Virus record (IMG/VR): IMGVR_UViG_3300044812_000039
Span: 1-46,511 of that record
Direction: 5' to 3' (one strand)
From: a virus
DNA: 46,511 nucleotides
Part shown: in pieces, positions 1-43,879 of the stretch
How the letters are laid out: each line of letters opens with the position of its first letter
Numbering within the stretch: position 1 is the first letter of the stretch
Program-made: the position numbers and the translations under genes
Notes under the pieces: generated by a model
Seen by the model: the letters and a program-made list of their open reading frames with translations, nothing else
What the model was told of the DNA's origin: nothing
Database searches by the model: none

Positions 1-1326
1 TCAGCTGGCGCGGCGATGCTGCCAGAGCGGGAGGATGATGCCTGAGCCGTCCGCGTAGTCGGGCATGATGGCATGCCAGGCGCGCGCTTCGTCTTCATCG
101 AACCCTTCGTTGTAGTTCTTCCGAATCTTGCTCTCGCTCGTGCCGGCGCATTCGGCGACCCACGCGCGATCGCGGGTGATACCGAGGTAGGCGCTGATGC
201 CGGTGTGACGCAGCGCGTTTTTCTTCCACCGATAGGGCAGCTGTTTTTTTGCAGCGATGGCGCTGAGGCGCGAGGTCTCGCGTTTGCTCGGCTGTTCGCC
301 GCTGCAGACAAAGCCGGTGCGATCGCGATACGGCGCGAGCCAGGCGATGAGGTTGTCGGGCATCGGGACGTTGCGCGGTTCCGGTTTTTTGCGGCCGGTC
401 TTGCTGACTTCGCGCCGGATCCGGATGTATTTCTTCTGCCAGTGGAAGTCGGACCAGCGGAGCCGATCTTTCGAGTCGTTCGGATCGGGCGCGACTTCCT
501 CGGAGCGGACCATGGAGAAGGCGCAAACGAGGAGCCACGGCAGGTACTTGTGATTGATGTTGCCGATCCAGAAGCGCATTTCCTCGGGAGAGTAGGTGAG
601 GACCGGCGACCACGAACGCGGCTCCTCGAGCGCCGGCACGCGCTGCGCGGCCGTGTCGCGGTCCTGGGGAAGCCAGACCATCCGCTTGGCGACGCCCCAG
701 ACGTAGACGCATGCTTCGCGCACGTGATTGCGGCGTTTCCACCCGAACTTCCGGAGTGCCTGGTGCGTGCGGATTTTCTCGAGAAGGTCTTCAGTGCGGA
801 CGTCTGCAATGGCGGTCTTCGGGAACCACTGTTTGATGAGCTTGCCGTCGTTGGTGATGTCCCGCGTGAAGCGGCTGGATAAATTGCGCTCCTCAACTTC
901 GGCAACGGTGTAGTCGACGCAGAACTCGACCGTCTTCTCGACAGGGAGGCAAGCGAAGTTGCGTTTGTGGAAGAGAGCGAGATCTCGCAACGCGACCCCG
1001 CCGGAGATCTGATGCGCTTCGGCGATCGCGCGCGCGGCGGCGTCGACGGGGATGCCTAACGAAGAGAGCGCATCGCGCGCGGCAATGTAGATGCGACGGT
1101 CCTCCGCCGTCATGTCGAGGACTGCAGTCTCGGCATTGAGGAGCGCGATCGCGACCCGCTCGACGTCGTCTTTCAGCTTGCCTAACGAGGTGCGGAGACA
1201 AGTTCGCCAGTCGCTGCCGTCCTTGTAGAGAAATCCGATGCGGCCGTCTTTGGTGGCGAAGACGTCGAAGGCAAGCGAGCCGTATTTGAGCGTCGCGGGA
1301 ATCCCTTTGGGAAGCGGGTGCGGCAT
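1..1326 (-). CDS. tyrosine recombinase (phage integrase)
   Basis: Site-specific recombinase expected to integrate and excise the phage genome. The 441-residue protein has a long N-terminal DNA-binding part and a C-terminal catalytic domain. Visible catalytic residues are Arg274 (in SMVRSEEV), a probable beta-hairpin Lys309 (SKTGRKK), the box ALRHTGIS with Arg373-His374, and the nucleophile Tyr405 in KNYNE. The usual His three residues before the box Arg is Asn370, seen in some families. It starts at ATG (minus, 1326), nine bases after the stop of the upstream membrane gene, and is the last gene of a minus-strand operon. The stop lies exactly at the window edge, so no attachment site can be looked for on that side. 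Confidence 0.95.
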   Translation of the reverse strand: MPHPLPKGIPATLKYGSLAFDVFATKDGRIGFLYKDGSDWRTCLRTSLGKLKDDVERVAIALLNAETAVLDMTAEDRRIYIAARDALSSLGIPVDAAARAIAEAHQISGGVALRDLALFHKRNFACLPVEKTVEFCVDYTVAEVEERNLSSRFTRDITNDGKLIKQWFPKTAIADVRTEDLLEKIRTHQALRKFGWKRRNHVREACVYVWGVAKRMVWLPQDRDTAAQRVPALEEPRSWSPVLTYSPEEMRFWIGNINHKYLPWLLVCAFSMVRSEEVAPDPNDSKDRLRWSDFHWQKKYIRIRREVSKTGRKKPEPRNVPMPDNLIAWLAPYRDRTGFVCSGEQPSKRETSRLSAIAAKKQLPYRWKKNALRHTGISAYLGITRDRAWVAECAGTSESKIRKNYNEGFDEDEARAWHAIMPDYADGSGIILPLWQHRRAS

Positions 1327-1334
1327 TCGGCTTC

Positions 1335-2056: not shown

Positions 2057-2121
2057 ACCGATGGGCACTGTAGGAACAGAAGTTTTGCGGTGTAAAGATT
2101 TTTCAAAGAAAAACTATTGAC

Positions 2122-2347: not shown

Positions 2348-2348
2348 A

Positions 2349-2380: not shown

Positions 2381-2388
2381 TGAACGAA

Positions 2389-2631
2389 ATGCCTAACGAA
2401 GAAATGCGGATGCGGTCGAAGACTCCGCCGAAATGGATCTCGATCAAAGCCGCCGACCATCACGTGATTGAGGCCGAGGATTCGATCGATCATGCGCTCA
2501 CCTACGGCGGTCGCACAATCATGGCGCCCAAGCTGGCGTGCAATGTGGAGGGTGCGATCGGCCTGCCGGCTTCGGTCTTCAATTCCGCCGGAATGCAAGT
2601 TTGGACGCAACGCGAAAGGGCGACGCGATGA
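2389..2631 (+). CDS. hypothetical protein, early operon
   Basis: 80 residues, mixed alpha/beta composition, no recognised family. The start at ATG 2389 sits just after the degenerate leader repeat. Its TGA overlaps the ATG of the next gene (ATGA at 2628), indicating coupled translation. Confidence 0.65.
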   Translation: MPNEEMRMRSKTPPKWISIKAADHHVIEAEDSIDHALTYGGRTIMAPKLACNVEGAIGLPASVFNSAGMQVWTQRERATR

Positions 2632-3517: not shown

Positions 3518-3736
3518 GTGCGTGCGGAGCTCGCGTTCACTGAAAATGCGACGGGAGTCGTGAATTGCGGTGCGATCAAGGAGCTGACGGATAATCGGAT
3601 TCGACAAACGAAGATGCTGCTGTTCATCGCCGAGCAGCTGCAGCAAACAACGATATCGCGGGCCGAGATCGAACGGCTCCAGGCTGAGGCGGAAGCGTAC
3701 TGCACCGCACATGGAGGGAAGCCCCGATGGCGCTGA
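3518..3736 (+). CDS. hypothetical protein with uncertain start (possible frameshift)
   Basis: The coding signal in this frame begins before GTG 3518, at about 3422 (residues such as LIRFALTTRAVGSIVKAIREL), yet the frame has no ATG, GTG or TTG between 3146 and 3517. An ATG at 3424, next to the previous stop, opens a different frame that ends after 21 codons at TAA 3487-3489. Either the gene starts at GTG 3518 (72 residues), starts at TTG 3143 over the neighbouring gene, or carries a +1 shift near 3487. The C-terminal part is helical and charged. Function unknown. Confidence 0.45.
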   Translation: MRAELAFTENATGVVNCGAIKELTDNRIRQTKMLLFIAEQLQQTTISRAEIERLQAEAEAYCTAHGGKPRWR

Positions 3737-3966
3737 CCGACATCGAGCGTCGGCTGATCGTGGCGATTTTCTCGGGCACGGATGCGGAGACGGCGCGGCG
3801 GATTGCGGCCGATCAACTGCACCGCGGCACCTCGTTGACGGTGCTGCAGACCATGCGGGACGAGGCGCGCCGATTCGATCCCGAGCTCGCGGAGAAGATG
3901 ATCGCGCGACATACGGAAGCTGCTTGCGCGTCGTGGCAGATGTCTGGAGCGGCGGACGGAGCCTAA
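3727..3966 (+). CDS. hypothetical small helical protein
   Basis: 79 residues, preceded by a strong Shine-Dalgarno-like GGAGGG about nine bases before ATG 3727, and overlapping the upstream stop by ten bases. Predicted to be almost entirely helical (DAETARRIAADQLHRG). The stop lies inside a copy of the dispersed GCCTAACGA motif. No family recognised. Confidence 0.65.
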   Translation: MALTDIERRLIVAIFSGTDAETARRIAADQLHRGTSLTVLQTMRDEARRFDPELAEKMIARHTEAACASWQMSGAADGA

Positions 3967-3972
3967 CGAGTT

Positions 3973-4260
3973 ATGCCGTCACGCATCCCGATCGCTGCAG
4001 CGCGCCGGTTCATGAAGGAGCAGGGCTGCACGCACGTGATCATCTACGCGCATGACGGCACAGCCGGCCATGTGGTGACTTGCGGCAAGTCGACGGAAGC
4101 GGCCGGCCAGGCTGCAGACTTCGGAAACAAGCTGAAGCGCGAGCTGAAGTGGCCGGAATCGTTGTGCGCTGATCAGCCGTCGCGCGTTCGCAAGCTGCAG
4201 GCTCGCGTCGCCGAACTCGAGGAGCAGCTCGCGAAGCACAGTGGGAAGCCTAACGACTAA
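3973..4260 (+). CDS. conserved phage small protein with C-terminal coiled coil
   Basis: 95 residues. The N-terminal half (IPIAAARRFMKEQGCTHVIIYAHD) resembles a small protein widespread in phage early regions, usually starting with an IPIAAA segment and followed by a strand and a Cys/Gly turn; its role is not known to me. The last ~25 residues form a short charged coiled coil (RKLQARVAELEEQL). Confidence 0.65.
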   Translation: MPSRIPIAAARRFMKEQGCTHVIIYAHDGTAGHVVTCGKSTEAAGQAADFGNKLKRELKWPESLCADQPSRVRKLQARVAELEEQLAKHSGKPND

Positions 4261-4261
4261 T

Positions 4262-4951
4262 ATGAATACGAATCCAACAGTTTTGCCGGTGCTCGGCTTG
4301 AACGGGATCACGCTGCGAAGCGGTGGTCACCAGAGCCGGGATAAGGGGGTTTGCGCAATGGAAGCCGTCGCATGGCTGGCAGGCGAACCGCACAGCGACC
4401 AGCCGGTGTGCACGTGCCCGGTGATCGCCGCGTTCATGCGCCGGTGGAACGACCTGCTGCCGAACGACGCCGAGCGCGATCGGCTGCTGAAGCCGCTGTT
4501 GCCTGAGCTGATCGGCACGCGCGCCGATCGAGAAACGATGCGCGCTCGGGCCGATATGGCGACCGACTGGCTGGGTACGTCCGTTGCGCCGGCATTGCTG
4601 ACGCTCGCCGGCTTTGGAGCCGCCGCAGAGCGCGTGAAGGCGAATCCGCGTTCGGTCGACGTGGTGCGCGCTGCGGCGGAAGAAGTAAGGGCTGCGGCGG
4701 CCAGCAGGTTCGGAAGGGCTGTGTTTGAAGACGCCTACGCCTCCGCCTACGCCTACGCCTACGCCTCCGCCTCCGCCTACGCCTCCGCCTCCGCCTACGC
4801 CTCCGCCTACGCCTCCGCCTCCGCCTACGCCTCCGCCTACGCCTCTTTGCAAAAAATCGATCTCGCGCCGCTGAACGCGTCGCTCGAAGAGCAAGCGCAG
4901 TCGCTCGTTAGGCAGATGTGCGCGCTGACGAAGGAGAGTCAGAAAGCCTAA
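4262..4951 (+). CDS. hypothetical protein with Cys motif and an Ala-Tyr/Ser-Ala repeat tract
   Basis: 229 residues from ATG 4262. Residues about 30-62 (GVCAMEAVAWLAGEPHSDQP, then CTCPVIAAF and RRWND) match a domain I know from phage and actinobacterial hypothetical proteins that often carry an Ala-rich repeat tail. Here the tail is about 38 residues of alternating Ala with Tyr or Ser, encoded by a perfect 6-bp minisatellite (4733-4846), followed by a ~30-residue helical end. Repeat length would change in units of two residues without breaking the frame. Confidence 0.7.
   Translation: MNTNPTVLPVLGLNGITLRSGGHQSRDKGVCAMEAVAWLAGEPHSDQPVCTCPVIAAFMRRWNDLLPNDAERDRLLKPLLPELIGTRADRETMRARADMATDWLGTSVAPALLTLAGFGAAAERVKANPRSVDVVRAAAEEVRAAAASRFGRAVFEDAYASAYAYAYASASAYASASAYASAYASASAYASAYASLQKIDLAPLNASLEEQAQSLVRQMCALTKESQKA
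4733..4846 (+). repeat. in-frame hexanucleotide minisatellite (gcctac/gcctcc)
   Basis: Nineteen consecutive 6-bp units, GCCTAC or GCCTCC (the last is GCCTCT), encoding Ala-Tyr or Ala-Ser. The two unit types alternate irregularly, in blocks that look like slippage or unequal exchange products. The tract interrupts no reading frame. Confidence 0.95.
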
Positions 4952-4954
4952 CGA

Positions 4955-5436: not shown

Positions 5437-5564
5437 TTGCGCGTTGCGTTCATTGCGGCGGAAAGTTCAGGCGTAAACGCTCCGGTTTCGCTGCGCGGCG
5501 CAGGTATTGCGGAACGCGGTGTTCCCGGGCTGCTAGCAGCCAACGGCGGCGCACACGGTCATGA
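5433..5564 (+). CDS. 43-residue Cys4 zinc-ribbon peptide
   Basis: Very small gene supported by ATGA overlaps at both ends. The peptide has a CVHC pair near the start and a CGTRC pair about 20 residues later, with a strongly basic body (RRKRSG, RRRYC, SQRRRTRS). Two spaced Cys pairs suggest a Zn ribbon that binds nucleic acid. Confidence 0.6.
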   Translation: MIARCVHCGGKFRRKRSGFAARRRYCGTRCSRAASSQRRRTRS

Positions 5565-5905
5565 AGCTCGAGTTCGAAGACGAGCTGATCATCGAGGGCG
5601 TCGCGCGCGCGGCCGAACGGATCCTGCTGAGTGGGGCGTTCGCGGACCGGATCGCCGATGCGATCGCGCAACGGTTCGAGTTGCTGACGCCGGCGGATGC
5701 GGCCGCAGTCCTGGACAACCTCACGACGCGGACGCTGGCCGACAACCACGTGGAGTGGGGGCTCGACAAGTCGGTGGCGTTCGGTCCCGCGAACCCGCGC
5801 TACTTCCTCTCGCAAATCCTCGAGCGCGCGAAAGCAAAGGTCATCAAGGGCCGGAAAACGGCACCAGCAAACGCAGTGAAGATGGAAGGAAGCAATGCAG
5901 CATGA
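5561..5905 (+). CDS. hypothetical protein, early operon
   Basis: 114 residues, mostly helical, acidic N-terminus and basic C-terminus. No recognised domain. ATGA coupling to the preceding and following genes. Confidence 0.65.
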   Translation: MKLEFEDELIIEGVARAAERILLSGAFADRIADAIAQRFELLTPADAAAVLDNLTTRTLADNHVEWGLDKSVAFGPANPRYFLSQILERAKAKVIKGRKTAPANAVKMEGSNAA

Positions 5906-6306
5906 GTGAGCGACGGGACGAATCGGAACATCTGGCGGATGAACTTGCGGCGGAGATCGGGCTGCATCGGGAAGAAGCGGCGCCGGCGGAAGAGATGTCG
6001 GCCGACGAGCGGTTGTTGATGGCGCGATTCGCGGGCGAAGTGCGCGAGAACGCGATTCCGGTAACGATCAACGTGGGCTGGGAAGTCGCGTGGGCGTTGC
6101 TCGCGACGATCCAGCTGGCATGCCGCAACGAGGCGTTTACCGGCCCGACGCGCAATGTCGCGGAAGGTTTCGGCCGACACCTGGAAAAGCAGATCGCTCT
6201 CGGGCCGGCCAGCGCCCAGATCGCGGCGATGGGCTGGGAGAAACATTACGACGCGCCGATTGCGCCTAACGAGGATGACGATGGGTCGGCGGAGGCGAGG
6301 TCATGA
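5902..6306 (+). CDS. hypothetical protein, early operon
   Basis: 134 residues from the ATGA at 5902; the frame is open further upstream but the upstream product is a shadow. Acidic N-terminal ~50 residues, then a hydrophobic helical core (NVGWEVAWALLATIQLA) that looks like a buried helix rather than a membrane segment. Function unknown. Confidence 0.6.
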   Translation: MSERRDESEHLADELAAEIGLHREEAAPAEEMSADERLLMARFAGEVRENAIPVTINVGWEVAWALLATIQLACRNEAFTGPTRNVAEGFGRHLEKQIALGPASAQIAAMGWEKHYDAPIAPNEDDDGSAEARS

Positions 6307-6749
6307 CACCGCTGCGCTGGATCATCCTGATCGCCGCGTGTGTGCCGGTGGTTCTGTTTTTGCTGGCGATGGCGATCCAGGCGCTGCTGATCCGGATTTT
6401 CTGCGGCGACTGCGACGAGGGCGCGCAGGCAGACGCCGCAACGCCGCCGGCACGAAAGTCGACGCCTAAGACGTACTCGCCGGAGGCGCTTCGGAACGCG
6501 CGCCGGCGGGGATTGAACGCGGGACTTCGCGGGCACCCGCGCACGTCGTGCCCGTACCACCAGCAGACGGACCAAGGGCTCGTACGCGAGTGGAACGAGG
6601 GCTACACGATTTGGCAGGCGAGGGGGAACGGAACACGGCCGGCGTTGCCGTGGATGCAGCAGCGAGAAGGAGGAAACGATGGCAGCAACAATGGAGGCGC
6701 GCAGAGCCGCGCCAGCAAAAGCAGCGGGCGCCCCCAGGCCGAAGCCTAA
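6303..6749 (+). CDS. membrane-anchored protein with RMF-like domain
   Basis: 148 residues. An N-terminal TM helix (about 5-32) is followed by a linker and by residues ~60-102 that fit the ribosome modulation factor pattern: ARRRG, NAGLRG, R, CPY, then W-x3-GY. RMF dimerises ribosomes in stationary phase; similar domains occur in phages without known function. The anchor is unusual. The gene overlaps the next one by 71 bases in another frame. Confidence 0.6.
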   Translation: MTPLRWIILIAACVPVVLFLLAMAIQALLIRIFCGDCDEGAQADAATPPARKSTPKTYSPEALRNARRRGLNAGLRGHPRTSCPYHQQTDQGLVREWNEGYTIWQARGNGTRPALPWMQQREGGNDGSNNGGAQSRASKSSGRPQAEA

Positions 6750-8508
6750 CGGCGCCCACCAGAACGCTTCCCCCGAAGCCGATCGCCGCGAGCCTAACGA
6801 GTTAAAGGCGCGGGCGCAAGCGGCGAGTGCTTCGTTGACCGCGACGATCGAACGCGCGGCGGCGAAAGCGGGTGTGACCGTGGAAGCGTTCGCGAAGCTG
6901 CCGGTGGGGGAACAGAACGCGTTCCTGATCGAGACGAAGGCCGACGCGGAGCATCCGGAGAATGTGGCTGCGACGCGGTGGGTGAGTCCCGCCACGATCG
7001 AGCGATCGCCGTTCAACCGCGACATGTTCGACCCGGAGAAGCTGGCGGAGCTGATCGAGAACGTGAAGCAGCATGGGGTGCTGCAACCGCTGCTCGTGCG
7101 GCCGGTGCGATACGAGATGCGCGAAACGCCGCTCGGCTGGCACTTGATGTGCAATGAAGCGGTGGTCGCCGAGTTCACCGCGTCGCAAGAAGGCTTGGTG
7201 CGGAAGCGCCTGTCTGATTACACGCACATCACTCTGCAGATCGTGGCGGGCGAACGCCGCTGGCGCGCGGCGACGGTCGCGAAGCTGTCGGCAATCCCGG
7301 TCGTGGTGCGTCAGCTGACGGACGAAGAGGCGATCGAGTTCCAGGCAATCGAAAATCTGCAGCGTGAAGACCTGAACGCGATTCACGAAGCGGAGAAGTA
7401 CCAGCAACTGCTCGATTCGTATCACAAGCGCGGGCTCGAGCCGGCCGCGGCGATGGACCTGCTCGTCGAGAAGATCGGCAAAGCGAAGTCGACGATTTAC
7501 GAGCGGCTACGGCTGCTGAAGCTGCCGGAGAAAGCGAAAGCCGCTGCGATTGCCGGCACGTTGCCGCCGTCGCATGCGGCGCTGATCACGAAGTTGGCCG
7601 ACGATCCCGAGGCGCAAGCAGCGGTGACCGCTCGGATTCTGAAGCCGGCAAGGCATGAGGTCGCGAGTCACGAGCATGACAGCGGCGATCCGGCGGCCGG
7701 CCTGCCGGTGATGTCGTTTCGCGACGCGAAGCACCTGATCGATCAGGCAGCTCGCCAAATCGAGACGCGCCGGACCTTCAACAAACTGCGCGATGAGTTT
7801 GTGAAGAAGGGGAACCTCGTTCTCTCGTCGGCGGACAATAAGAAGGTCTTCCCGCACACCTACTCGTCTTCGCCGGATGCGAAGAGCGGGTTCGTTCGGG
7901 TGGAAGATTACTGTCCGCTCGGCAGCAACTCGAAGTCGTGGAAGGAAGCGCTCGGTAAATTCGCCCCTTCGCCGGTGCTCGGCCAAACGCAGAGCGGCGA
8001 GGCGGTCATTCTGTATGCGGCTACGGAGGCGCGTGCCGCGGCGAAGAAGAAGGGGCTGAAAGCACGCACGACCGACTCGGGTGGGCGTGTGGAGAGTGCC
8101 GCTGACAAGAAGCGAAAGGAAGAACTCGCGGCGCGGCAGGAACGGTTCGACGCGACACTGCAGCTGATCGGCGAACGCGCGAAGAACGTCTCGGGCGATT
8201 CGCCGGCGCTGTGGCGGTTTCTGTTCGAGCAGATCGTGAGGAGCGGCGCCGCGCGCGGTGATGGCATGCGGAAGCGGCTCGGCATCAAGGGCGACTATTG
8301 GGATCACAAGCCGCTGCTCGAGCACTTCAAGAACGCGACCGCGAAAGAACTGCGGGCGGCGATCGCTGAGCTGCTCGTAGGCGGCCACCGGCCCGGTTTG
8401 TACGGACAGCCGAAATGGGACTCGGCGTTCGTTTCGGCGTGCGCTGCCTTCGAGGTGAAGGTGCCTTCCTGGAACGTCGGCGGGGCAAAGCAGACATCTG
8501 GACGATGA
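6679..8508 (+). CDS. ParB/RepB/Spo0J-family protein
   Basis: 609 residues. The N-terminal CTPase/nuclease-like domain covers about residues 100-215 and contains the GERRWRA box (191-197); a helix-turn-helix follows at about 255-282 (GKAKSTIYERLRLLKLP). Between the first strand and the GERR box lies an extra ~40 residues (about 145-185) not usual in ParB. The ~290-residue C-terminal part is unassigned. Family members bind parS-like DNA sites for partition; in a phage operon a role in maintenance, replication or regulation is equally possible. An alternative start downstream of ATG 6679 would avoid the overlap with the preceding gene. Confidence 0.85.
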   Translation: MAATMEARRAAPAKAAGAPRPKPNGAHQNASPEADRREPNELKARAQAASASLTATIERAAAKAGVTVEAFAKLPVGEQNAFLIETKADAEHPENVAATRWVSPATIERSPFNRDMFDPEKLAELIENVKQHGVLQPLLVRPVRYEMRETPLGWHLMCNEAVVAEFTASQEGLVRKRLSDYTHITLQIVAGERRWRAATVAKLSAIPVVVRQLTDEEAIEFQAIENLQREDLNAIHEAEKYQQLLDSYHKRGLEPAAAMDLLVEKIGKAKSTIYERLRLLKLPEKAKAAAIAGTLPPSHAALITKLADDPEAQAAVTARILKPARHEVASHEHDSGDPAAGLPVMSFRDAKHLIDQAARQIETRRTFNKLRDEFVKKGNLVLSSADNKKVFPHTYSSSPDAKSGFVRVEDYCPLGSNSKSWKEALGKFAPSPVLGQTQSGEAVILYAATEARAAAKKKGLKARTTDSGGRVESAADKKRKEELAARQERFDATLQLIGERAKNVSGDSPALWRFLFEQIVRSGAARGDGMRKRLGIKGDYWDHKPLLEHFKNATAKELRAAIAELLVGGHRPGLYGQPKWDSAFVSACAAFEVKVPSWNVGGAKQTSGR

Positions 8509-9127: not shown

Positions 9128-9333
9128 TGCCTCTGCGCGAAACCCGCAAACTGGCGACGGTTTTTGAAGAAGCGATCGCCGCGCTGCCGACACGCAACGT
9201 GCGGCGCGCGCTGCGCGAGGCGTCGCAGGGCACCGAAGTCGAGTGTGATCTCGCGCCGGCCATTCGCCGGCTCGCGCGCCGAGAACTCGCGAAGCGCGAT
9301 CGCCGCCGGCGTCAGCAGGTGTTGCCGCTATGA
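9127..9333 (+). CDS. hypothetical small basic protein
   Basis: 68 residues from ATG 9127; GTG 9124 directly before it is an equal candidate. Helical, with a very basic C-terminus (RRELAKRDRRRRQQ). It lies immediately upstream of the replication initiator. Confidence 0.55.
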   Translation: MPLRETRKLATVFEEAIAALPTRNVRRALREASQGTEVECDLAPAIRRLARRELAKRDRRRRQQVLPL

Positions 9334-10343
9334 CGGAAGATTTTCAGGGGCACTACCTAACGACGCGTGACGGCATGCTGAAGAAGCGCGTTGGCGAACA
9401 GGCGCAACGCGTGCTCGAGGCTTTCATGAAACTGTCGTTCCTGGCCGATCGGCTGACGGCTCCGGTGGCCAGGCTCGATGAGCTCGCGGATGCGACGCTG
9501 ATTCACCCGGGCAATCTGCGGCGGGTGATCGACGAGCTCGTGGAAGCGAAGGTGGTCGAGGAGCAGGCGCACGGCGAGTGGCTCGTGTATGAGGTGCGGC
9601 CGGACTGGCAGCAATGGCTGCTGCCGATGCGCAACCGGCCGGAGAAAGAGCAGCGGGCCGAGGCCGCGCTGAAGCGGATGATCGCCGCTGCGGCGAACGA
9701 TCCGGAGCAAATGAAGCTGCGAATGGCGATCGAGGAGGACGAGCTGAGCGAGAACAGCCGCGCGTTCGCGCCGGTCGTACGTCGTACGAGTGAGCAGGCC
9801 GAATCGATCGTACCGGGTACGAGTGGGGCGGTCGTACGAGGTACGAGTGACCGATCGTACGAGGTACGAGTCCCTCGTGAAGGTCCGGTCGTACGAGGTA
9901 CGAGTGACCCGCCCTTTAAAGCTTTAGGAGTTGTACAGGAGTCTAACGACTTTAAAGCTCCTAGAGCTTTAGGAGTGGAAGGGGCAACTCCGTGGGAGCC
10001 TGGCGAAGAATCCGGAGAATCGCGGTCGAGTGCCGACGATCCCGACTTCGAGATCCTGCTCGAGCGGATGTGGCGCGTGATTCCGGACCAGCGGGAGCAG
10101 TATGCCGGCGGATGGATCAACCGGGCGCGGTGTTGCCCGCGTGCAATGCGAATGGCGGTCGACAAGTGGCTGGAGTCGCCGCCGAAGAAGCTGAAGACGA
10201 CGAGTTGGCAGTGGCTGCGCGCGGAATACATCTCGACGGCTTACGCGCTGGGACTTGGCGACAAGCTCTCGCTGCAAGACCAGGACCGCCGCGGCTGGTG
10301 GAAACGACTGAGCGGGCGCGTGACTGCAACGTTGTGGCTGTGA
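9330..10343 (+). CDS. replication initiator (lambda O-like organisation)
   Basis: 337 residues. The N-terminal ~100 residues look like a winged helix (LADATLIHPGNLRRVIDELVEAKVV, strand wing after). Residues about 148-193 are a repetitive linker with VVRGTSD units, encoded by five 21-bp iterons. The C-terminal ~110 residues are a compact helical domain with several Trp. An initiator gene that contains its own iterons followed by an AT-rich stretch is the layout of the lambda origin in gene O. Protein family membership is inferred from this layout, not from strong sequence similarity. Confidence 0.7.
   Translation: MTEDFQGHYLTTRDGMLKKRVGEQAQRVLEAFMKLSFLADRLTAPVARLDELADATLIHPGNLRRVIDELVEAKVVEEQAHGEWLVYEVRPDWQQWLLPMRNRPEKEQRAEAALKRMIAAAANDPEQMKLRMAIEEDELSENSRAFAPVVRRTSEQAESIVPGTSGAVVRGTSDRSYEVRVPREGPVVRGTSDPPFKALGVVQESNDFKAPRALGVEGATPWEPGEESGESRSSADDPDFEILLERMWRVIPDQREQYAGGWINRARCCPRAMRMAVDKWLESPPKKLKTTSWQWLRAEYISTAYALGLGDKLSLQDQDRRGWWKRLSGRVTATLWL
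9773..9907. repeat. five iterons of a putative replication origin
   Basis: Five 21-bp direct repeats begin at 9773, 9806, 9830, 9853 and 9887. Three start GGTC and two GATC; the shared core is TCGTACGAGGTACGAGT, with changes in copies 1 and 2 only. Spacings of 33, 24, 23 and 34 bp place the copies irregularly on the helix. Each contains the palindrome TCGTACGA or a derivative. They are the expected binding sites of the initiator that encloses them. Confidence 0.85.
9914..9978. other. AT-rich stretch beside the iterons (putative duplex unwinding element)
   Basis: Directly downstream of the iterons the GC-rich sequence gives way to a locally AT-rich stretch with TTTAAAGC at 9915 and 9951 and GCTTTAGGAGT at 9921 and 9966. 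In lambda-type origins the unwinding region lies at this place. Confidence 0.65.
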
Positions 10344-11323: not shown

Positions 11324-11556
11324 GCAAACTCTCTGAAGCAGCGTCGTACGCGAAACTGATGCCTACGCAGATTCGGCAGGAGATTGTGCAAGCCGACATG
11401 GCGATCGCGCGCGCTCGATTCCTGATCGAGGGCTGCAAGCTGCACAGCGACGACTACTGGAGCTACGCGCGGGTGATCGAGAGCAAGCGCAACTTCCTCG
11501 CGATCGCGAAGCGTGCGCTCGCGGCGCACAACCAGGACGGTACCAGAAAGACATGA
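11320..11556 (+). CDS. hypothetical helical protein
   Basis: 78 residues, predicted helical throughout, no recognised domain. ATGA overlap to the ATPase gene that follows suggests joint synthesis with it. Confidence 0.6.
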   Translation: MSKLSEAASYAKLMPTQIRQEIVQADMAIARARFLIEGCKLHSDDYWSYARVIESKRNFLAIAKRALAAHNQDGTRKT

Positions 11557-13388
11557 GCGAACTCGCAGTCCCTGTAAAAGTCCTCGATCAACACTTGGTC
11601 GTGCTCGGCAAAACCGGCGCCGGCAAATCATCCACGCTCCGCCATTTCGTGGAGTACCTGCTGTCGCATAACAAACGCGTCTGCATCATCGATCCGAAAG
11701 GCGACTGGTGGGGACTGAAGGCGGCGGCCGATGGGAAAGGGAAAGGCTTTCCGGTGATAACGTTCGGCCAGTTCAAAGGTGAAGAGGATGTGAGCGACGT
11801 GCCGATCAGTCGTGAGTCGGGAACGGAAGTCGCGGAGATCGTGGCGAGCGGAAACCGGCCGATGGTGATCGGGTTGCGCGGTTGGATGCCGGCGGCGCAG
11901 TCGCAATTCTGGGTCGACTTCGCGTCGACGATCTACAACTCGAAATCGTGCGGCGGCTTGTATCTGATCATCGATGAGATCCAGAACTGGGCGCCGAAAG
12001 AGCGGACCGGGTTCGAGGCGGAGAACATGGCGCTCTACTGGACGAAGAAGCTGCTCTCGGAAGGGCGGGGCCTCGGCCTGACGATCTTCTGTGGATCGCA
12101 ACGGCCGCAGAGCGTGCACAATGGCGTGCTGACGCAGTGCGAGACGCTGGTGGCGATGCGTTTGATTCACGACGCCGATTGCACGGCCGTGGAAAGCTGG
12201 CTGAAGCGCACGCGCGACAAAGAGAAGCGAGCTGAGATCATGACCAGCCTGCCCGACCTCGGCCGCGGCGAGGCGTGGGTGTGGTCGCCGGAAGTCGGCT
12301 TCGGTCCGGTGCGGATGCAGTTCCCGATGTTCGAGACGTTCGACTCGTTCGCGGCGCTGCAGCTGCAGAAGAAGGTAAACAAACGCGGCTGGGCGGATGT
12401 GAACCTGGAGGACGTGCGGCAAAAGCTCGCGGCGGTGATCGAGGAGAAGCGTGCTAACGATCCGCGCGAGCTGAAGGCTGAGATCGTGAAACTGAACCGC
12501 ACGAAGATGCAGCAAGACATGGTGGCCACGCGCGCGACGCAGGACATGCGTCGGACCGTTGAGAAGCGCGTCGAAGTGCCGGTGCTGAAGGATGGGCAAA
12601 TAGCCGCCGTGGAAACGGTCCTAACCCGCGCAGAACGGCTGTTCTCGAAGTATCGCGAGGATTCGCTAACGCTCGTCTCCGGAATGAGCACGGCACTGAA
12701 GCCGCTGGAGGATGCGTTCTGCAAAGTTCGCGATGCCGGGTTACCATCACCAGCACGCGAGACGCGCGCTCTGCCCGGCGGTCGGATCGCCACCGGCCAA
12801 ACGATTCGGCCGAATGAGCAATCGCCATTGCTCACCGGCACGCCGGCGGCGACCAGCGTTCCGCCGCCGCCAGTCCAGACATCTGCCAAGGGCGGGACGG
12901 ACCTGCCGCCGCGACGTCAACGGATCCTCGATGCGCTGTTGTTCTTTGAGTCGTTAGGCTACGGAGACGCGGCGCGTGAGTGGGTGGCGTTCTTCTGCGA
13001 TACTTCGCCGAATTCCTCGACCTACGAGAAAGACTGCGGCGCGATGCGATCGGCGGGATTGGTCAGTTATCCGGCAGCCGGCCGTATGCAGCTGCAGGAG
13101 CCCGGCAGAACGGTCGCGCGGCCGACGCAGCCAATCTCACTCCCGGAGTTCCACGCGAAGGTAGAGAGGCTCCTACCGCCGCGCCGGCAGAAGATCGCGC
13201 GGGCGTTGATCGACGTGTATCCGGATGCGCTGCGGCGCGATCAGCTCGCGGAGCGTTGCGTCACGAGCGCGGACTCGAGCACGTTCGAGAAAGACTTGGG
13301 CGGCATGCGCACGGCGGGGCTGCTGGTTTATCCGCAGCCTAACTACGCGAAGGCGGCAGATCTGCTATTTCCACCGCTGCCAGCGTAA
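11553..13388 (+). CDS. HerA/FtsK-like ATPase with two C-terminal winged-helix repeats
   Basis: 611 residues. An ATPase domain of the HerA/VirB4/DUF87 kind: Walker A GKTGAGKS at 19-26 and Walker B LYLIIDE ending at Asp141-Glu142, with a later GSQRPQS segment typical of the sensor region. Residues ~280-350 are charged and coiled. The C-terminus carries two copies of a ~55-residue winged-helix-like unit (about 451-507 and 541-594), each starting LPPRRQ and ending AGLxxYP. Such ATPases translocate DNA or protein. Conjugation-type partners are absent; a role in DNA processing of the phage is inferred. Confidence 0.8.
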   Translation: MSELAVPVKVLDQHLVVLGKTGAGKSSTLRHFVEYLLSHNKRVCIIDPKGDWWGLKAAADGKGKGFPVITFGQFKGEEDVSDVPISRESGTEVAEIVASGNRPMVIGLRGWMPAAQSQFWVDFASTIYNSKSCGGLYLIIDEIQNWAPKERTGFEAENMALYWTKKLLSEGRGLGLTIFCGSQRPQSVHNGVLTQCETLVAMRLIHDADCTAVESWLKRTRDKEKRAEIMTSLPDLGRGEAWVWSPEVGFGPVRMQFPMFETFDSFAALQLQKKVNKRGWADVNLEDVRQKLAAVIEEKRANDPRELKAEIVKLNRTKMQQDMVATRATQDMRRTVEKRVEVPVLKDGQIAAVETVLTRAERLFSKYREDSLTLVSGMSTALKPLEDAFCKVRDAGLPSPARETRALPGGRIATGQTIRPNEQSPLLTGTPAATSVPPPPVQTSAKGGTDLPPRRQRILDALLFFESLGYGDAAREWVAFFCDTSPNSSTYEKDCGAMRSAGLVSYPAAGRMQLQEPGRTVARPTQPISLPEFHAKVERLLPPRRQKIARALIDVYPDALRRDQLAERCVTSADSSTFEKDLGGMRTAGLLVYPQPNYAKAADLLFPPLPA

Positions 13389-14580: not shown

Positions 14581-15103
14581 CGAATTGCAGATCATCGAGC
14601 CGGAGATGGCCAAGGTCTGCGACGCAGTGCAAGAAGCGATCGCTGCGGAGCATCAAGCGATGGCTGCGATCCACCATCTCATCCGAACGAAGATCATCGC
14701 AGGGGAATTACTCGCTGCGAAACGCGAGAGCGCGAAGCGCGGTGACTGGGTCGCCTGGTGTGACAACGTGCTGCCAATCTCGTACGACACAGCTAATCGC
14801 TGGATCGGTCTCTTCCTGTTCATCAAGACGCGAGGAGAGCACGCGCTGGATGACGCGAAGACGGTCCGTCAGGCTTACGTGCTTGCTGGGTTGCTGCCTG
14901 AGTCGCAGGGCGGAACAAGTGGCGGTGGGTCGTCTGCGTCGGAGGATGCCTACCTGACAGACCTAGTGAGAACAAACACGCGTCTCAGCGCGCAAGTCGC
15001 CAAGCGTCCGCTCGCACAGTGGCCAGTGGATCAGCTGCGCAGTCTGCGCGAGCGGCTCAAACCGCTGGTAGAACTGTACGTCGAAGTGCAGGCGATCGCG
15101 TGA
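14549..15103 (+). CDS. DUF3102-like protein
   Basis: 184 residues from GTG 14549. The segment IIAGELLAAKRESAKRGDW followed by VAWCDNVLPIS and TANRWIGL matches the DUF3102 pattern found in phage and plasmid proteins, which often sit near ParB-type genes. The C-terminal ~50 residues are helical and basic. Biochemical role unknown. Confidence 0.65.
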   Translation: MRQLSDQQQPNELQIIEPEMAKVCDAVQEAIAAEHQAMAAIHHLIRTKIIAGELLAAKRESAKRGDWVAWCDNVLPISYDTANRWIGLFLFIKTRGEHALDDAKTVRQAYVLAGLLPESQGGTSGGGSSASEDAYLTDLVRTNTRLSAQVAKRPLAQWPVDQLRSLRERLKPLVELYVEVQAIA

Positions 15104-33619: not shown

Positions 33620-33759
33620 ACCAGGCGCGCCACGTCTACCTCTACCGCGGCGGTTCGCGCTGCCGGCGGCCGGGCGACAAGGACGCGCATTATGAACGTC
33701 TGGAATCGGTCAATGAGTACCTCCGCAAGCTCACGCTCACTCCGCGGTCGTTAGGCTAA
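33080..33759 (+). CDS. tail assembly chaperone, predicted -1 frameshift product (GT-like)
   Basis: A -1 shift at A-AAA-AAG (33511-33517) joins 146 zero-frame codons to the frame starting GTC 33517, giving 80 further residues (GQYSRDEILWAVPKAELNQ, then NEYLRKLTLTPRSLG) up to TAA 33757-33759. The extension frame has no start of its own and much better protein character than the zero frame there. Total 226 residues. The tail completion of the fusion ends in a TAATG overlap with the next gene. Confidence 0.75.
33511..33517 (+). promoter_or_regulatory. slippery heptamer for -1 frameshift
   Basis: A-AAA-AAG in the zero frame, inside a run of nine A (33508-33516), the same heptamer as in E. coli dnaX. 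A possible short stem-loop (CGGT, ACCG) follows within 20 bases. Confidence 0.75.
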
Positions 33760-36958: not shown

Positions 36959-37663
36959 ATGGCCGGCCAACCAATTCCACTCGGCAGCGCGCGAACCGGC
37001 GCGCTCATTCCAGACATCGGGAGTAGCGTCGCGACGAACGATTACGGCATCGACGAAGGTCGCGTCCGCCATTCGTTAGGCGATCAAAGTCTCGCACAAC
37101 AGCGCCGCCCGAAACGCGGCGGGCCTTACGCCGGCACGCTTCCGCAGTTCAAGGGCATGTTCGTCGACCGCAGCGCGATCGTTGGCGCGGAGGGCAAGGC
37201 CTGCTTCGTCGATGTCGACTACAAGGCACTCAACTCGGGCTGGGGTATTCAGCCGCCCGAGCAGTCGGCCGAGATGGAGGTGCGGGATCTCACTTCGTTC
37301 GGCGACAACCTCTTCACGTCCGGACGCGGCCAGACGCTGCATCTGCCGCATCCGGTCCTCACCTACAAATTCGCCGATACCAAGCCGAGCAACAAACGCG
37401 GCACCTACGCGCTCGAGCTCCCGAACGCGCCGACGATCGGGCAGTTCGAATTCGAGGTGATCTGGATCAACAGCGTCCAGGGCGAGGACGGAAATATCTC
37501 GATCACGACGCGCAACAATTACTCTCTCATTTTCTCGCCGCACCCGTCCGGCTGGTTCTGCATGAAAGACGATTGCGAACCGCTCTGCGGCGGCCGGCTC
37601 TTCCAGATCGAGCAGCAATGGAAGCGCTTTTACCTCTGGACCGGTTACAACCGCCATGGCTAA
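36959..37663 (+). CDS. minor tail protein candidate
   Basis: 234 residues, beta-rich with aromatic residues near the end (HPSGWFCMKDDCEPLCGGRL). First gene after the tape measure, where distal tail or tip proteins are found. Family not recognised. Confidence 0.6.
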   Translation: MAGQPIPLGSARTGALIPDIGSSVATNDYGIDEGRVRHSLGDQSLAQQRRPKRGGPYAGTLPQFKGMFVDRSAIVGAEGKACFVDVDYKALNSGWGIQPPEQSAEMEVRDLTSFGDNLFTSGRGQTLHLPHPVLTYKFADTKPSNKRGTYALELPNAPTIGQFEFEVIWINSVQGEDGNISITTRNNYSLIFSPHPSGWFCMKDDCEPLCGGRLFQIEQQWKRFYLWTGYNRHG

Positions 37664-37916: not shown

Positions 37917-37919
37917 CGT

Positions 37920-38962: not shown

Positions 38963-41900
38963 GTGGCGAGTGCACCCAGCAACATCCTTTTCGGGCCGTT
39001 CTTCTACAGCGCCGCCCGGAACGAGTATCAGGTCCTCAGCTGGACGGAAAACGAGTCCGGTCCCTGCTCCTATCGCGTCGAGGTAAGAGCACCGGGCTCG
39101 TCGGTCTGGAATTACGTCACCGACGTCGCCAAGGGCGTCGGCTTTTGCCAGTTCGGAAATTACTCGAAATTCCTCTACGACCACCGCGTCACCTGCGTGC
39201 CATCGAGCGGCTCGTCCGCCTCGGCTACTCGCGCGCTCATCTCCTGGACGCGCACCAACGATCAGCCGCACGATCTCGCTCCCTCGATCGCGACCGCCAA
39301 CGGCAGCACGTCGCTTCTCTCGCTCCAGTGGACCGATCTCTCGTCCTACGTCTACGAAGTAGGCGTTAAGATTTTCCGCGTCAGCGGCTCCGGTCAGCCG
39401 ATCTGGTTCACCCGCACTTCGCCCGGCGGTTCCTACGCGCTGCTCCGCTCGAATGTCTTCCTCGATGGCTCACTCGCCAATGGCGCCAGCTCGAACTACG
39501 CCGCGACCTGGAACATCAAAGATGCCGCGGTCGCGATCGGCGCAGGCTCGCCCGATAGCCTCCGCGATGGCGACCTTGTCCGCGTTGAAATCCAAACGTG
39601 GTCCGGCGTCTCCAGCTCGCAGGGCCCGGAACCCGTCGTCACGACCGGCCTGCTTTTCACCTATCACGCGCCGATCTCGCTCACCACGTCGCAGCTGCTC
39701 GTCGCGACGAAGGATCAGCCTTACTCGGTAAACTTCGCCGCCGGCGCGATCGGCACGCCTGTTTCGTGGGCGATCTCGAGCACGCCGACCGGGCTCAGCT
39801 TCAACACCGGCACGGGTGTCCTGAACGGCACGCCGACTGTCCAGGGCACCTTTGGTTTCGATATCTCGGTCACCAACGGCGCCGGCCAGGTCACCACTCA
39901 GCATTTCACTCTTCAGGTCAATCCGGTCGCGATCCCGGTTATCTCCGCGCCGGCCACCGCTGCGCTCAATGTCGGCGTGGCCGCGAGCGTGCAGCTGGTC
40001 GCGTCGAATAACCCAACCTCCTACGCGATCGTCTCTGGCACACTGCCGGCGGGCCTCTCGCTCGACACTTCCACCGGCATCATTTCCGGCACGCCCACCA
40101 CAGCCGGCACTCCAACAGTTGTCTTCAAGGCAACGAACTCCGGAGGCGACTCGGCTAACTGGTCGCTCGCTTTCACCGTCACCGCGATCGCGGTCCCGGT
40201 CGTCACTTCCGCCACCACGGCCAGCGGTTACTCCGGCGATCCGTTCGGATACCAGATCACCGCGAGCAATTCGCCGACCGCATATAGCGCGGCCGGTCTG
40301 CCCGCCGGTCTCTCGCTCGATTCCACGACCGGCTTCATCTCCGGAACGCTCACCAGCACCGGCACTTTCTTCATTACGCTTCGCGCCTCGAATGCCGGCG
40401 GCATTGGCGCCGCGGTCACGCTCACGCTCACCGTTTCGAATCGCATCCCGACCGTCACCGGTGGATCCGCTTCAGCGACCCAGGGCCAGACCTTCGGCTA
40501 CCAGATTCACGCCGCGAATTCGCCGACCTTCTTTTCCGCTACCGGGCTTCCGAACGGCGTCTACTGCAACTCCACGAGCGGCTTCATCTTCGGCACGCCG
40601 AGCGAGTCAGGCACGTTCACCGTCACGCTATCGGCGCGCAACTCTGCCGGCACCGGCACCGCAACGCTCACCCTGACGGTCGCTGCTCCCGCGGTGTCGC
40701 CGCCGGTCATCAGCTCGCCGACAACGGCCTCGGGCAAGGCAGGGCGCGCGTTCAATTATCAGATCACCGCTTCGAATTCGCCCACCAGCTTCGACGCGCA
40801 GAATCTTCCCGCCGGCGTCTCGGTCGACCCCGTTTACGGGCTCATCACCGGCGTCCCGACTGTCTCGGGCACGTTCTATGTCACGCTCACCGCGTCCAAC
40901 TCCGGCGGATCGGGAACGGCGACGCTCACAATCACGCTCGCAGCCGCGCTGCTCCCGCCGGTCATCACGTCGTCCGCGACCGTTTCCGGAAGGATTGGGC
41001 GCGCCTTCACCACGTACCAGATCGCGGCCTCGAACACGCCGACCAGCTTCGGCGCGAGCAGTCTGCCCGCGGGTCTTGCGGTCGATACCAGCACCGGCCG
41101 CATCACGGGAACGCCGAGCGGAATACCGGGCACCTTCGTTGCCGTCATCACTGCGACGAATGCAGCAGGCACCGGCGAAGCCGAGCTGACGATCACGCTT
41201 GCCGCCGCGGTGGTTCCACCGGCCATCACCAGCGCCGCGACTGCCAGCGCCAAGGTTGGCCGCGCGTTCAGTTATCAGATCGGCGCTACCAATTCGCCGG
41301 CCAGTTATGCCGCGTCCGGATTGCCAGGCGGCCTAACGGTTAGTACCACCACCGGCCGCATCTCCGGCACGCCGACTGCGAACGGCACGTTCGACGTCAC
41401 AATCAGCGCGACGAACACCGGCGGCACAGGTGATGCGACGCTCACGATCACGGTCGCCCCCGCAGCGATCGCGCCGGTCATCACGAGCAACACCACCGAT
41501 GCCGCGCCCGCAGTTACCGGCTCGAACTTTTCGTATCAGATCACCGCGAGCAATGTTCCGACGAGCTTCGGAGCGACAGGACTTCCGGCCGGTCTCACCG
41601 TCAATACGACCACCGGCCTCATCTCCGGCAAGCCGACTGTTGCCGGTACCTACAGCGCGACGATTAGCGCCACGAACACGGCCGGCACCGGCTACGACAC
41701 GCTCGAGATTGTTGTTACCAGCGCGATCGCAGCGCCGGTTATCTCGATCTCCGGCGCTGTGCCTGGCGTCGTCGGCGTCGCCTTCAGTTACCAGATCGCC
41801 GCGACGAATTCGCCCACCAGCTACGGCGCGACTCCGCTGCCCGCCGGTCTCTCGCTCAACGCGACCACCGGCGTTATCTCCGGCACTCCCACCGCGGCCG

Positions 41901-43879
41901 CCACGACGTCCGTGGCGCTCACGGCGACGAACTCCGGCGGTACTGGGGCGGCGACGCTCTCGATCGTTATCGCCGCTTCCGCGCCGGTCACGCCGCCGCC
42001 GGTCATCTCGAGCGCGAACTCGATCTCGACTGCTGTCGGCACCGCGATCGATTTCCAGATCACGGCAACGCATTCGCCCACCAGCTTCGCGGCGACCGGT
42101 CTCCCCGCTGATCTCACTCTCGACTCCGCCACCGGTCGCATCACGGGCACGCCTGGCACGGCTGACACCTATATCGTCACGCTTAGCGCGACGAACGCCG
42201 GCGGCGCCGGTTACGGGTCGCTGCTCATCGACGTGCAGGCGATCGAAGGCGACGGCGATATCCCGGTTCGCGCGACGAGCTGCAAGTTCTGGGTCGACAC
42301 GGTCGCGAAGCGCCTGGTCTCCGGGTTCAACTCGAGCACTCCCGCCGACACGTACCGTTTTTTCCAGGGCGACACCCCTTCGGTCGATATCGTTTTCCTC
42401 GAGCCGACAGGCGACGTCTTCGCGCCTTACAAGGTCAAGAAGTACATCGGCGCCGCGGTGCGCGTCGGTGTCGGGAAACCGGCAGTGCCAACCTCCGGCA
42501 CATTCCCGCTCAAAGATGCTGCGCAGTCGACGGCGGCGATCGCCTGCAACGCCAGCGCCGCCGCTGTGCAATCGGCGGTCCGCGCCGGCCTAACGACTCG
42601 ATGGAGCGCGGCAGTGGTTACCGGACCCGACGGTGGCCCGTGGCGCATCGATCGCGGTGTAACCGGATCCGCGCCGGCCCTGACCGCCGACCCCGCGAAC
42701 CTGGTGCCGGATTCCGAAGTCCTGATCAAAGTGCGGCGCGACGGATCGAGCACACAGAACGCGCTCCAGACGGTGAGCCTGCAGCAGCTCTCGGCCGCTT
42801 ACTCCGACACCTGGACTCCGTTTGCACAACACCGCGGCTTCACCGGCGAGCTGAGCTTCGATACCGAAGGCGTCGACCAGATGATCGGCGCCGCGGCGGA
42901 AGTAACCGACGCGATCATCGAGATCGAAGTGACCCGGGCAGGATGCAAGCCGGAGACGCTGGTGCACGAGACGTGCACGGTCATCAACGATCTGCTCGAG
43001 AACGGGATCTACGGCGCGACTCCGAATCCGAACGCGGTCACGGCCGACCAGGACATTGTCGCCACGCCCGCGAACACCGGCACGGTCACGCAGCTGTTCA
43101 GCTGGATCGCGAAGCTCATCAAAGGCATCACCGGCAAGAGCGATTGGAAAACGGCGCCGGCGATCACGCTCGAGGCGGCGAAGACTCAGCTCGATGCGAA
43201 GGCGCTCGCGGCCGATCTGCTGTCCACCTTCCGGAGCGACATCAACGGGCCGTCGTCGCTCGCCGCCGTTCCCACTGTCGATCTGCACGGTTGGACGAAT
43301 GACGCGAACGACGGCCGGCCGGTCATGTTCACGTACCACAATGGGGACGACGACGGCACGATCGACACCTATCTGCTCGTTAGCGACGCCTACACCGACT
43401 TCAGCGCGCAGCAGCCAACGCAGGCAGTGCAGCCCGCCGATTTCGACGCGACCACCAACGCGAAGCACTGGGCGCTGATCAGCCGGTTCGACGACGGCGG
43501 CGCGATTGGTTTCGGATCTGTGATGATGCCCGAGGGCAGTTTGCTGGTGGTCAATGAGATCGTCTTCAACGTCGCCGGCCTTCTCGCGCTCAACGGCAGC
43601 GTCCTCGGCACCGTCAGTTTCGTTGCGAGTGCGTTTAACCTCGGGGGCGGGGCTCGAAGCGCCTTCTACAGCGGCTCGACTTCCGTCGACTGGAGAATGC
43701 CGAACCTCAGTGACGTGGCAATCGGCTACGAGATCATCGTAGGGCACGACGGCTCCGCAGGCACACTCACGGTCAAGAACAACGCCGGAACCAGCACGCT
43801 GGCAACGATGGCGGCCGGCGAAACATCGCTCTTCATTTCGCGCGGCGCGACGTGGAAGCGGATCAAGTTCGCGACCTAA
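38963..43879 (+). CDS. large tail fibre/tip protein with ten Ig-like domains
   Basis: 1638 residues from GTG 38963. N-terminal part (1-236) is fibronectin-like in composition. Residues ~237-1093 are ten ~85-residue repeats of the putative-Ig (He_PIG) type with the pattern FxYQIxAxNSPTSF, LPAGL, TGxISGTP, GTxxVTLxATN. The C-terminal ~545 residues contain a phage-like linker and an end domain with Gly-rich strands, ending in GATWKRIKFAT. Ig-like repeats on tails are thought to bind cell-surface sugars. Repeats 3-10 are most alike and probably arose by internal duplication. Confidence 0.85.
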   Translation: MASAPSNILFGPFFYSAARNEYQVLSWTENESGPCSYRVEVRAPGSSVWNYVTDVAKGVGFCQFGNYSKFLYDHRVTCVPSSGSSASATRALISWTRTNDQPHDLAPSIATANGSTSLLSLQWTDLSSYVYEVGVKIFRVSGSGQPIWFTRTSPGGSYALLRSNVFLDGSLANGASSNYAATWNIKDAAVAIGAGSPDSLRDGDLVRVEIQTWSGVSSSQGPEPVVTTGLLFTYHAPISLTTSQLLVATKDQPYSVNFAAGAIGTPVSWAISSTPTGLSFNTGTGVLNGTPTVQGTFGFDISVTNGAGQVTTQHFTLQVNPVAIPVISAPATAALNVGVAASVQLVASNNPTSYAIVSGTLPAGLSLDTSTGIISGTPTTAGTPTVVFKATNSGGDSANWSLAFTVTAIAVPVVTSATTASGYSGDPFGYQITASNSPTAYSAAGLPAGLSLDSTTGFISGTLTSTGTFFITLRASNAGGIGAAVTLTLTVSNRIPTVTGGSASATQGQTFGYQIHAANSPTFFSATGLPNGVYCNSTSGFIFGTPSESGTFTVTLSARNSAGTGTATLTLTVAAPAVSPPVISSPTTASGKAGRAFNYQITASNSPTSFDAQNLPAGVSVDPVYGLITGVPTVSGTFYVTLTASNSGGSGTATLTITLAAALLPPVITSSATVSGRIGRAFTTYQIAASNTPTSFGASSLPAGLAVDTSTGRITGTPSGIPGTFVAVITATNAAGTGEAELTITLAAAVVPPAITSAATASAKVGRAFSYQIGATNSPASYAASGLPGGLTVSTTTGRISGTPTANGTFDVTISATNTGGTGDATLTITVAPAAIAPVITSNTTDAAPAVTGSNFSYQITASNVPTSFGATGLPAGLTVNTTTGLISGKPTVAGTYSATISATNTAGTGYDTLEIVVTSAIAAPVISISGAVPGVVGVAFSYQIAATNSPTSYGATPLPAGLSLNATTGVISGTPTAAATTSVALTATNSGGTGAATLSIVIAASAPVTPPPVISSANSISTAVGTAIDFQITATHSPTSFAATGLPADLTLDSATGRITGTPGTADTYIVTLSATNAGGAGYGSLLIDVQAIEGDGDIPVRATSCKFWVDTVAKRLVSGFNSSTPADTYRFFQGDTPSVDIVFLEPTGDVFAPYKVKKYIGAAVRVGVGKPAVPTSGTFPLKDAAQSTAAIACNASAAAVQSAVRAGLTTRWSAAVVTGPDGGPWRIDRGVTGSAPALTADPANLVPDSEVLIKVRRDGSSTQNALQTVSLQQLSAAYSDTWTPFAQHRGFTGELSFDTEGVDQMIGAAAEVTDAIIEIEVTRAGCKPETLVHETCTVINDLLENGIYGATPNPNAVTADQDIVATPANTGTVTQLFSWIAKLIKGITGKSDWKTAPAITLEAAKTQLDAKALAADLLSTFRSDINGPSSLAAVPTVDLHGWTNDANDGRPVMFTYHNGDDDGTIDTYLLVSDAYTDFSAQQPTQAVQPADFDATTNAKHWALISRFDDGGAIGFGSVMMPEGSLLVVNEIVFNVAGLLALNGSVLGTVSFVASAFNLGGGARSAFYSGSTSVDWRMPNLSDVAIGYEIIVGHDGSAGTLTVKNNAGTSTLATMAAGETSLFISRGATWKRIKFAT
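39671..42240 (+). repeat. array of ten ~255-bp Ig-domain coding repeats
   Basis: Ten in-frame tandem copies within the tail fibre gene. Nucleotide identity between neighbouring copies is visible in the TTCxxYCAGATC, CTGCCCGCCGGTCTC and ATCTCCGGCACG blocks, making the array a likely site of recombination. Confidence 0.8.

Follow-up and report, generated by a model that had tools for sequence, protein, structure and literature searches.

A nine-base word scattered through a phage genome marks a clade of Verrucomicrobiota and may act in DNA uptake

The stretch of DNA considered here, henceforth the window, is the IMG/VR virus record IMGVR_UViG_3300044812_000039 in its full length (positions 1 to 46,511), and the element in question is a nine-base word, GCCTAACGA, that is scattered over it. 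Apart from the genes listed in Table 1 the window codes for a head protease, a major head protein and an endolysin. It probably represents a tailed phage, and a temperate one because an integrase is encoded. A DNA megablast against phage records found no nucleotide relative. At the protein level, the alignment of the major head protein comprised 12 genome loci, all of them in metagenome-assembled genomes (MAGs) of Verrucomicrobiota; the best match (64%) is in the Chthoniobacteraceae MAG G007, which also holds the best match of the terminase large subunit (61% identity). The phage does not own the word, which is a signature of a bacterial clade in the host phylum.

Excess of the word in the window

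The window holds 18 copies of GCCTAACGA where an order-3 Markov model expects 0.57, i.e. a density of 387 copies/Mb, and with z = 23 the word ranks first among all 9-mers of the window. Its octamer CCTAACGA occurs 19 times, and 18 of these 19 extend to GCCTAACGA. The split between the strands (13 plus, 5 minus) is not significant (P 0.096). An earlier sequence-only reading had listed the same 19 octamer positions, all of them exactly right, had called the word far above chance, and had stated that four genes take their stop codon from it; all this was borne out (for the stop codons, formed by the TAA of the word, see copies 4, 7, 11 and 13 in Table 1). The same reading had named two findings that would undo its claim, i.e. 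many 9-mers in equal excess or a count explained by codon-pair bias alone. The k-mer ranking gave no 9-mer of comparable excess, and the unrelated runner-up, AGGCGTAGG, has 9 copies that come from a local short-period repeat. This repeat is a tandem array of the 6-mer ACGCCT (19 copies, 4731-4844, within the open reading frame (ORF) 4241-4951), which is the source of the next most enriched unrelated 9-mers.

At first sight, one could think of chance arising from biased codons or dinucleotides in a GC-rich genome, since k-mers are biased in general, or of the relics of a longer repeat. Shuffling synonymous codons of the window genes, with proteins and codon usage kept, left only 2.6 +/- 1.1 copies of GCCTAACGA (at most 7 in 1000 shuffles), and the flanks of the copies have no bases in common. 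We found nothing further in favour of this explanation, which is refuted by these data together with the counts in motif-negative relatives given below, and to which we assign a practically negligible probability. The word is sharp in the window, because its one-mismatch variants are near chance there (15 against 11.4 expected). Copies other than the four at stop codons are found in several frames and on both strands, one of them between genes, and the word holds 5 of the 24 TTA and 2 of the 35 CTA codons of the window. An amino-acid or codon cause is ruled out by this use of frames and by the synonymous shuffles. As read from the sequence, integron attC half-sites (RYYYAAC) can be discarded as well, in as much as the copies are single or wrongly oriented to each other.

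Table 1. Genes, copies of the word and near-palindromic sites in the window.
Feature	Position	Strand	Remark
Integrase	1-1326	-	PHROG_1
ParB-like protein	6679-8508		ParB_N
HerA-like ATPase	11553-13388		
Second ParB-domain protein	15323-16021		
GpA-type terminase large subunit	21176-23260		PHROG_15, PF05876
Lambda-type portal	24109-25668		PF05136
Long tail protein	38963-43879		PHROG_8763
GCCTAACGA copy 1	1054-1062	+	in integrase gene, antisense to gene
GCCTAACGA copy 2	1180-1188	+	in integrase gene
GCCTAACGA copy 3	2391-2399	+	in small ORF 2389-2631
GCCTAACGA copy 4	3961-3969	+	stop codon of ORF 3727-3966
GCCTAACGA copy 5	4248-4256	+	where ORFs 3973-4260 and 4241-4951 overlap
GCCTAACGA copy 6	4905-4913	-	in ORF 4241-4951; inverted relative to copy 7, 32 bp apart
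GCCTAACGA copy 7	4946-4954	+	stop codon of ORF 4241-4951
GCCTAACGA copy 8	6264-6272	+	in ORF 5437-6306
GCCTAACGA copy 9	6792-6800	+	in ParB-like gene
CCTAACGA after A (ACCTAACGA)	9356-9363	+	end variant of the kind enriched in host genomes
GCCTAACGA copy 10	12951-12959	-	in HerA-like ATPase gene
GCCTAACGA copy 11	14575-14583	+	stop codon of ORF 13780-14580
GCCTAACGA copy 12	16477-16485	-	in ORF 16333-16692
GCCTAACGA copy 13	23255-23263	+	stop codon of terminase large subunit gene
GCCTAACGA copy 14	25065-25073	+	in portal gene
GCCTAACGA copy 15	27056-27064	+	in ORF 26854-27405
GCCTAACGA copy 16	33748-33756	-	intergenic
GCCTAACGA copy 17	37073-37081	-	in ORF 36959-37663
GCCTAACGA copy 18	42588-42596	+	in long tail gene
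TCCAGAYRTCTGGA-like site	3935-3948		
TCCAGAYRTCTGGA-like site	8489-8502		
TCCAGAYRTCTGGA-like site	12874-12887		
TCCAGAYRTCTGGA-like site	20335-20348		
TCCAGAYRTCTGGA-like site	37009-37022		
TCCAGAYRTCTGGA-like site	43997-44010		

The word and its dialects in Verrucomicrobiota chromosomes

A survey of 388 Verrucomicrobiota genomes, in which the reversed word served as control, found GCCTAACGA in very large numbers in a few of them. The genome G187 (2.9 Mb) has 1802 copies, evenly divided between the strands (933 plus, 869 minus), against 70 copies of the control. The octamer CCTAACGA is found 5493 times in G502 (4.3 Mb; 2752 and 2741 by strand, control 174), and in the same order there are 3430 copies in G494 (control 162), 2672 in G490 (137), 2498 in G454 (165) and 2254 in G187. 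Counts are moderate in about 20 further genomes of this order and below control in most others. The order is probably Chthoniobacterales, because it also holds MAGs named Chthoniobacteraceae (G007) and Chthoniobacter flavus (G015). The motif-negative Verrucomicrobiota have fewer copies of GCCTAACGA than of its reversed control, which rules out the general composition of the phylum as the cause, and the 12 MAGs with relatives of the head protein show no enrichment of the word.

In sequence sampled from G187, G502 and G490, GCCTAACGA is 44-54-fold over the Markov expectation, one-mismatch words are 2.2-2.9-fold over and two-mismatch words are at 0.7-fold. The tolerated changes are mostly at the ends of the word (GCCTAACAA, GCCTAACGG, CCCTAACGA, GACTAACGA, ACCTAACGA) while the core CTAAC is kept, and the sequence to either side is close to background, apart from weak pyrimidines immediately upstream. 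Copies occur in each of the four stop-free frames, in either orientation, and sense and antisense copies are balanced. No protein or transcription function explains the word, because the strands are equal and all stop-free frames are used. Copies less than 100 bp apart are rare in G187 (2 against 12.5 expected), while close spacing in G502 is as expected by chance.

The distribution of the word follows phylogeny. In a tree of the ComEC domain from 38 genomes, all 16 GCCTAACGA-positive genomes fall into one clade (support 100/99), and none of 500 shuffles was as clustered; note that the congruence refers to the tree of this one gene. G526 contains a mixture of GCCTAACGA and GCCTAACAA. The Verrucomicrobiales have a dialect of their own, TCTAACAR, with 2409 copies in G717 (control 154) and 2207 in G014 (control 203); about nine other genomes of this group have 567-1503 copies, and most of the remaining ones are below control. 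CTAAC is the core common to the dialects. The TCTAACAR dialect is also carried by a related phage, G006, whose own top words are TCTAACA, CTAACAA and CCTAACA, and by contig L029, which has the same top words and belongs to the MAG G014. In the chromosome of G014 TCTAACAA is in excess (737 against 143 reversed controls), which is indicative of a property of the host. Separate from TCTAACAR, G014 (L215-L222) has a dispersed repeat AAAACTTACCTCTA with 13-24 copies in 138 kb, and G426 (L223-L228) a longer dispersed repeat around CGGATCGTACAGTTCCG, resembling repetitive extragenic palindromic elements, with about 24 copies in 120 kb.

These data bear on the possibility that the word is a dispersed operator owned by the phage. 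In cluster A mycobacteriophages, which are temperate, the stoperators of the repressor are dispersed copies of an asymmetric word, some of them at gene ends. GCCTAACGA is likewise asymmetric and dispersed, several copies are at gene ends, the left (early) region is richer in them, and G006 has a variant, YCTAACA. In contrast to stoperators, GCCTAACGA belongs to the host chromosome: its thousands of copies in a defined bacterial clade refute an operator as the primary meaning, the variant of G006 is the chromosomal dialect of Verrucomicrobiales, and copies in the window are found deep within structural genes and on both strands. We thus consider a phage operator very improbable.

The genome G187 (loci L169-L182, L195-L214 and L245-L249) carries a second word, AAGATCGACA, which is unrelated to GCCTAACGA. 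Its 4653 copies (2314 plus, 2339 minus; no reversed controls) are about 141-fold over expectation and about twice as dense between genes as within them. Several dozen more genomes of the order have hundreds to 1500 copies or so, e.g. G580 (1509), G578 (1419), G581 (1179), G555 (1070) and G498 (1016). The window has one copy only.

A drop in both words delimits a sharply bounded 105-kb stretch of G187 (contig C14, 354,865-459,713; loci L211-L214 and L245-L246). This stretch codes for TrbI, TraG and a type IV secretion system coupling protein and has an integrase at its right edge, i.e. it is an integrative conjugative element; genes for a restriction-like helicase, efflux and a metal-ATPase are also present. 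At the core rate it should hold 63 copies of GCCTAACGA but has 10 (P 1.5e-16), a sixfold depletion (95/Mb against 600/Mb outside), and AAGATCGACA, with about 178 copies expected, is absent. To judge from this one island, therefore, both words are a mark of resident DNA that newly arrived DNA largely lacks.

A signature of this kind allows one to ask which host the window phage belongs to. The ratio of GCCTAACGA to GCCTAACAA is 18:1 in the window, 349:24 in G502 and 249:97 in G187 (Fisher P 0.03 for the window against G187). A host of the G502 type seems likelier than one of the G187 type, because the ratio fits G502 and because AAGATCGACA is found only once in the window; the exact host would be a species resembling G502, G494, G454 or G490. 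Samples of the strongest host genomes have 400-1100 copies/Mb. Most pairs found by scans of viral contigs for paired motifs were due to chance: of 16 whole records that were checked, 14 have only 2-3 copies, and only G618 (292/Mb) and G613 (158/Mb), with 7 copies of GCCTAACGA each and presumed hosts, stood out.

A possible tag for DNA uptake

We find it rather probable that GCCTAACGA is a genome-wide tag of self-DNA in the host lineage, resembling a DNA uptake sequence (DUS), that has accumulated in a temperate phage. A putative DNA receptor on the surface of the competence machinery would prefer DNA bearing the word, and as conspecific DNA is taken up and recombined time and again the word would become enriched on both strands, wherever coding allows. 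As a prophage the phage would reside in the chromosome and would gain the host word like any other resident segment. The large excess of one exact word, its equal strands, its freedom from reading frame and from longer repeats, its clade dialects and its depletion in the conjugative island are all traits of known uptake sequences. The sequence-only reading had offered a choice of roles, namely uptake, segregation, packaging, recombination or a host genome signature. The last of these holds for one clade within the host phylum, and uptake is the best supported as a likely function. Packaging cannot be the primary meaning, given the thousands of chromosomal copies, and segregation is disfavoured by the equal strands, while recombination remains in the form of the Chi-like rival discussed below.

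It is instructive to compare the word with known systems. The uptake signal sequences (USS) of Pasteurellaceae (Hin-USS and Apl-USS; PMC6776037) also have a 9-bp non-palindromic core that occurs on both strands, largely within genes, in clade dialects and in tens-fold excess. Temperate phages of Pasteurellaceae carry the host USS at more than 100/Mb; the build-up of USS in them, with a cut-off of 100/Mb and saturation at about 750/Mb, has been interpreted as a clock for the coevolution of phage and host (PMC6776037), and the density in the window falls within this range. The differences are that the sequence is unrelated, the phylum is another one, the flanking signal is very weak here, and a preference for our word in uptake is putative. 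The DUS of Neisseriaceae (PMC3630211) are similar in abundance (kingDUS has 5918 copies in 2.4 Mb; compare CCTAACGA in G502), and their dialects too follow phylogeny while keeping an invariant core, CTG in their case and CTAAC in ours. In contrast to them, our sites are mostly coding, no ComP-type receptor was identified, and close inverted pairs, which are typical of Neisseria DUS terminators although not required, are not enriched in G187 or G502.

Several points weigh against an uptake tag, the last two features among them. Firstly, nine of the 18 copies lie within the leftmost 7 kb of the window, on the side of the integrase (binomial P 0.0005, post hoc), a density that a model of uniform accumulation does not predict. 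Secondly, G007, the nearest prophage host, is motif-negative, the closest relative, L009, holds one copy in 6.3 kb, and none of the motif-positive genomes has a close relative of the window phage. Thirdly, 39 of 40 genomes have the ComEC domain, whether or not they carry the motif, and because of this the competence machinery neither supports nor refutes uptake; the search for a receptor, which went no further than ComEC, identified none. Finally, the genomes are mostly MAGs, with quality unstated.

A Chi-like signal would be a different way to mark one's own DNA: a host recombination nuclease of the RecBCD or AddAB type would halt at GCCTAACGA, and the copies would protect and repair the DNA that carries them. 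The Chi sequence of E. coli (GCTGGTGG) is also a short non-palindromic word found across a genome, a phage would benefit from the Chi of its host, and clade-specific dialects could equally follow a nuclease. Chi, however, is strand-polar, while GCCTAACGA appears non-polar: in the host genomes strands are equal, as are sense and antisense, and in 420 kb of one contig there are 120 and 102 copies by strand, although this test of polarity is weak as the GC skew of the contig is near zero. One nuclease is also hard to reconcile with the second, unrelated word, which has a similar density in G187. In addition, the excess of Chi is about 6.7-fold (1008 observed against 151 expected; PMC1939737), well below that of GCCTAACGA. 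We regard a Chi-like signal as unlikely, yet worth keeping in mind.

Somewhat less likely still, and improbable in our opinion, is a site of self-recognition by methylation or restriction, i.e. a HIP1-like site or the target of an orphan methyltransferase, copied by phages to pass as self. Such a site would explain both the equal strands and the presence of the word in phages. The cyanobacterial HIP1 (GGCGATCGCC; PMC1939737) is a short genome-wide word of comparable abundance whose one-mismatch forms are enriched, too. HIP1, however, is palindromic and contains a methyltransferase site, while GCCTAACGA is not self-complementary; a mismatch profile that is tolerant at the ends and fixed in the core, as well as two words coexisting in G187, are atypical of methylation targets, and phages usually avoid restriction targets rather than enrich them.

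Returning to uptake, we speculate, with the chances evenly balanced, that the Verrucomicrobiota have evolved a DUS family of their own with clade dialects (GCCTAACGA, GCCTAACRA, TCTAACAR), independently of Neisseria and Haemophilus, that at least one lineage, that of G187, bears two unrelated words side by side (GCCTAACGA and AAGATCGACA), possibly because of two receptors or an ongoing replacement of dialects, and that temperate phages carry the local word. To our knowledge, and in the papers we found, sequence-specific DNA uptake by means of a dispersed word has been described only in two families of Pseudomonadota, and our literature search, of incomplete coverage, found no report of such words in Verrucomicrobiota. 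If true, this would be a third, distant and independent case, outside Pseudomonadota; it would predict natural transformation in an abundant and hardly cultivated phylum of soil and freshwater, offer a case for comparing how words of this kind originate and spread, and direct attention to unknown receptors. Environmental Verrucomicrobiota might become genetically tractable if transforming DNA were supplied with the right word, and the word could be used to link metagenomic phages to their hosts.

Other elements of the phage and its relatives

A further candidate, an operator of a ParB-like protein, was rejected for GCCTAACGA: a contig found via its ParB-like homologue (G002, 39%) lacks the word and has a different palindrome, TCCAGACGTCTGGA, a near-form of which is also present in the window. 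This perfect form is enriched in G002 (ACGTCTGGA, 12 against 0.24). The near-palindrome of the window, TCCAGAYRTCTGGA, has six matches with up to two mismatches (Table 1) where 0.4 are expected, and it may serve the ParB-like protein encoded at 6679-8508 as an operator or parS-like site.

In another relative, with a head protein that is 63% identical (G003, locus L011), GCTGGTGGA occurs 7 times against 0.7 expected; it contains the E. coli Chi sequence, and GCCTAACGA is absent. The ORF at 9330-10343 of the window, which has a weak match to UBact, includes short imperfect repeats at 9805-9990: a unit of 23 bp is repeated at 9805-9871, and pieces resembling AGCTTTAGGA recur around 9943. The ORF at 6303-6749 matches the ribosome modulation factor (RMF, PF04957, E 1.1e-7, above the curated cut-off), which seems unusual for a phage.

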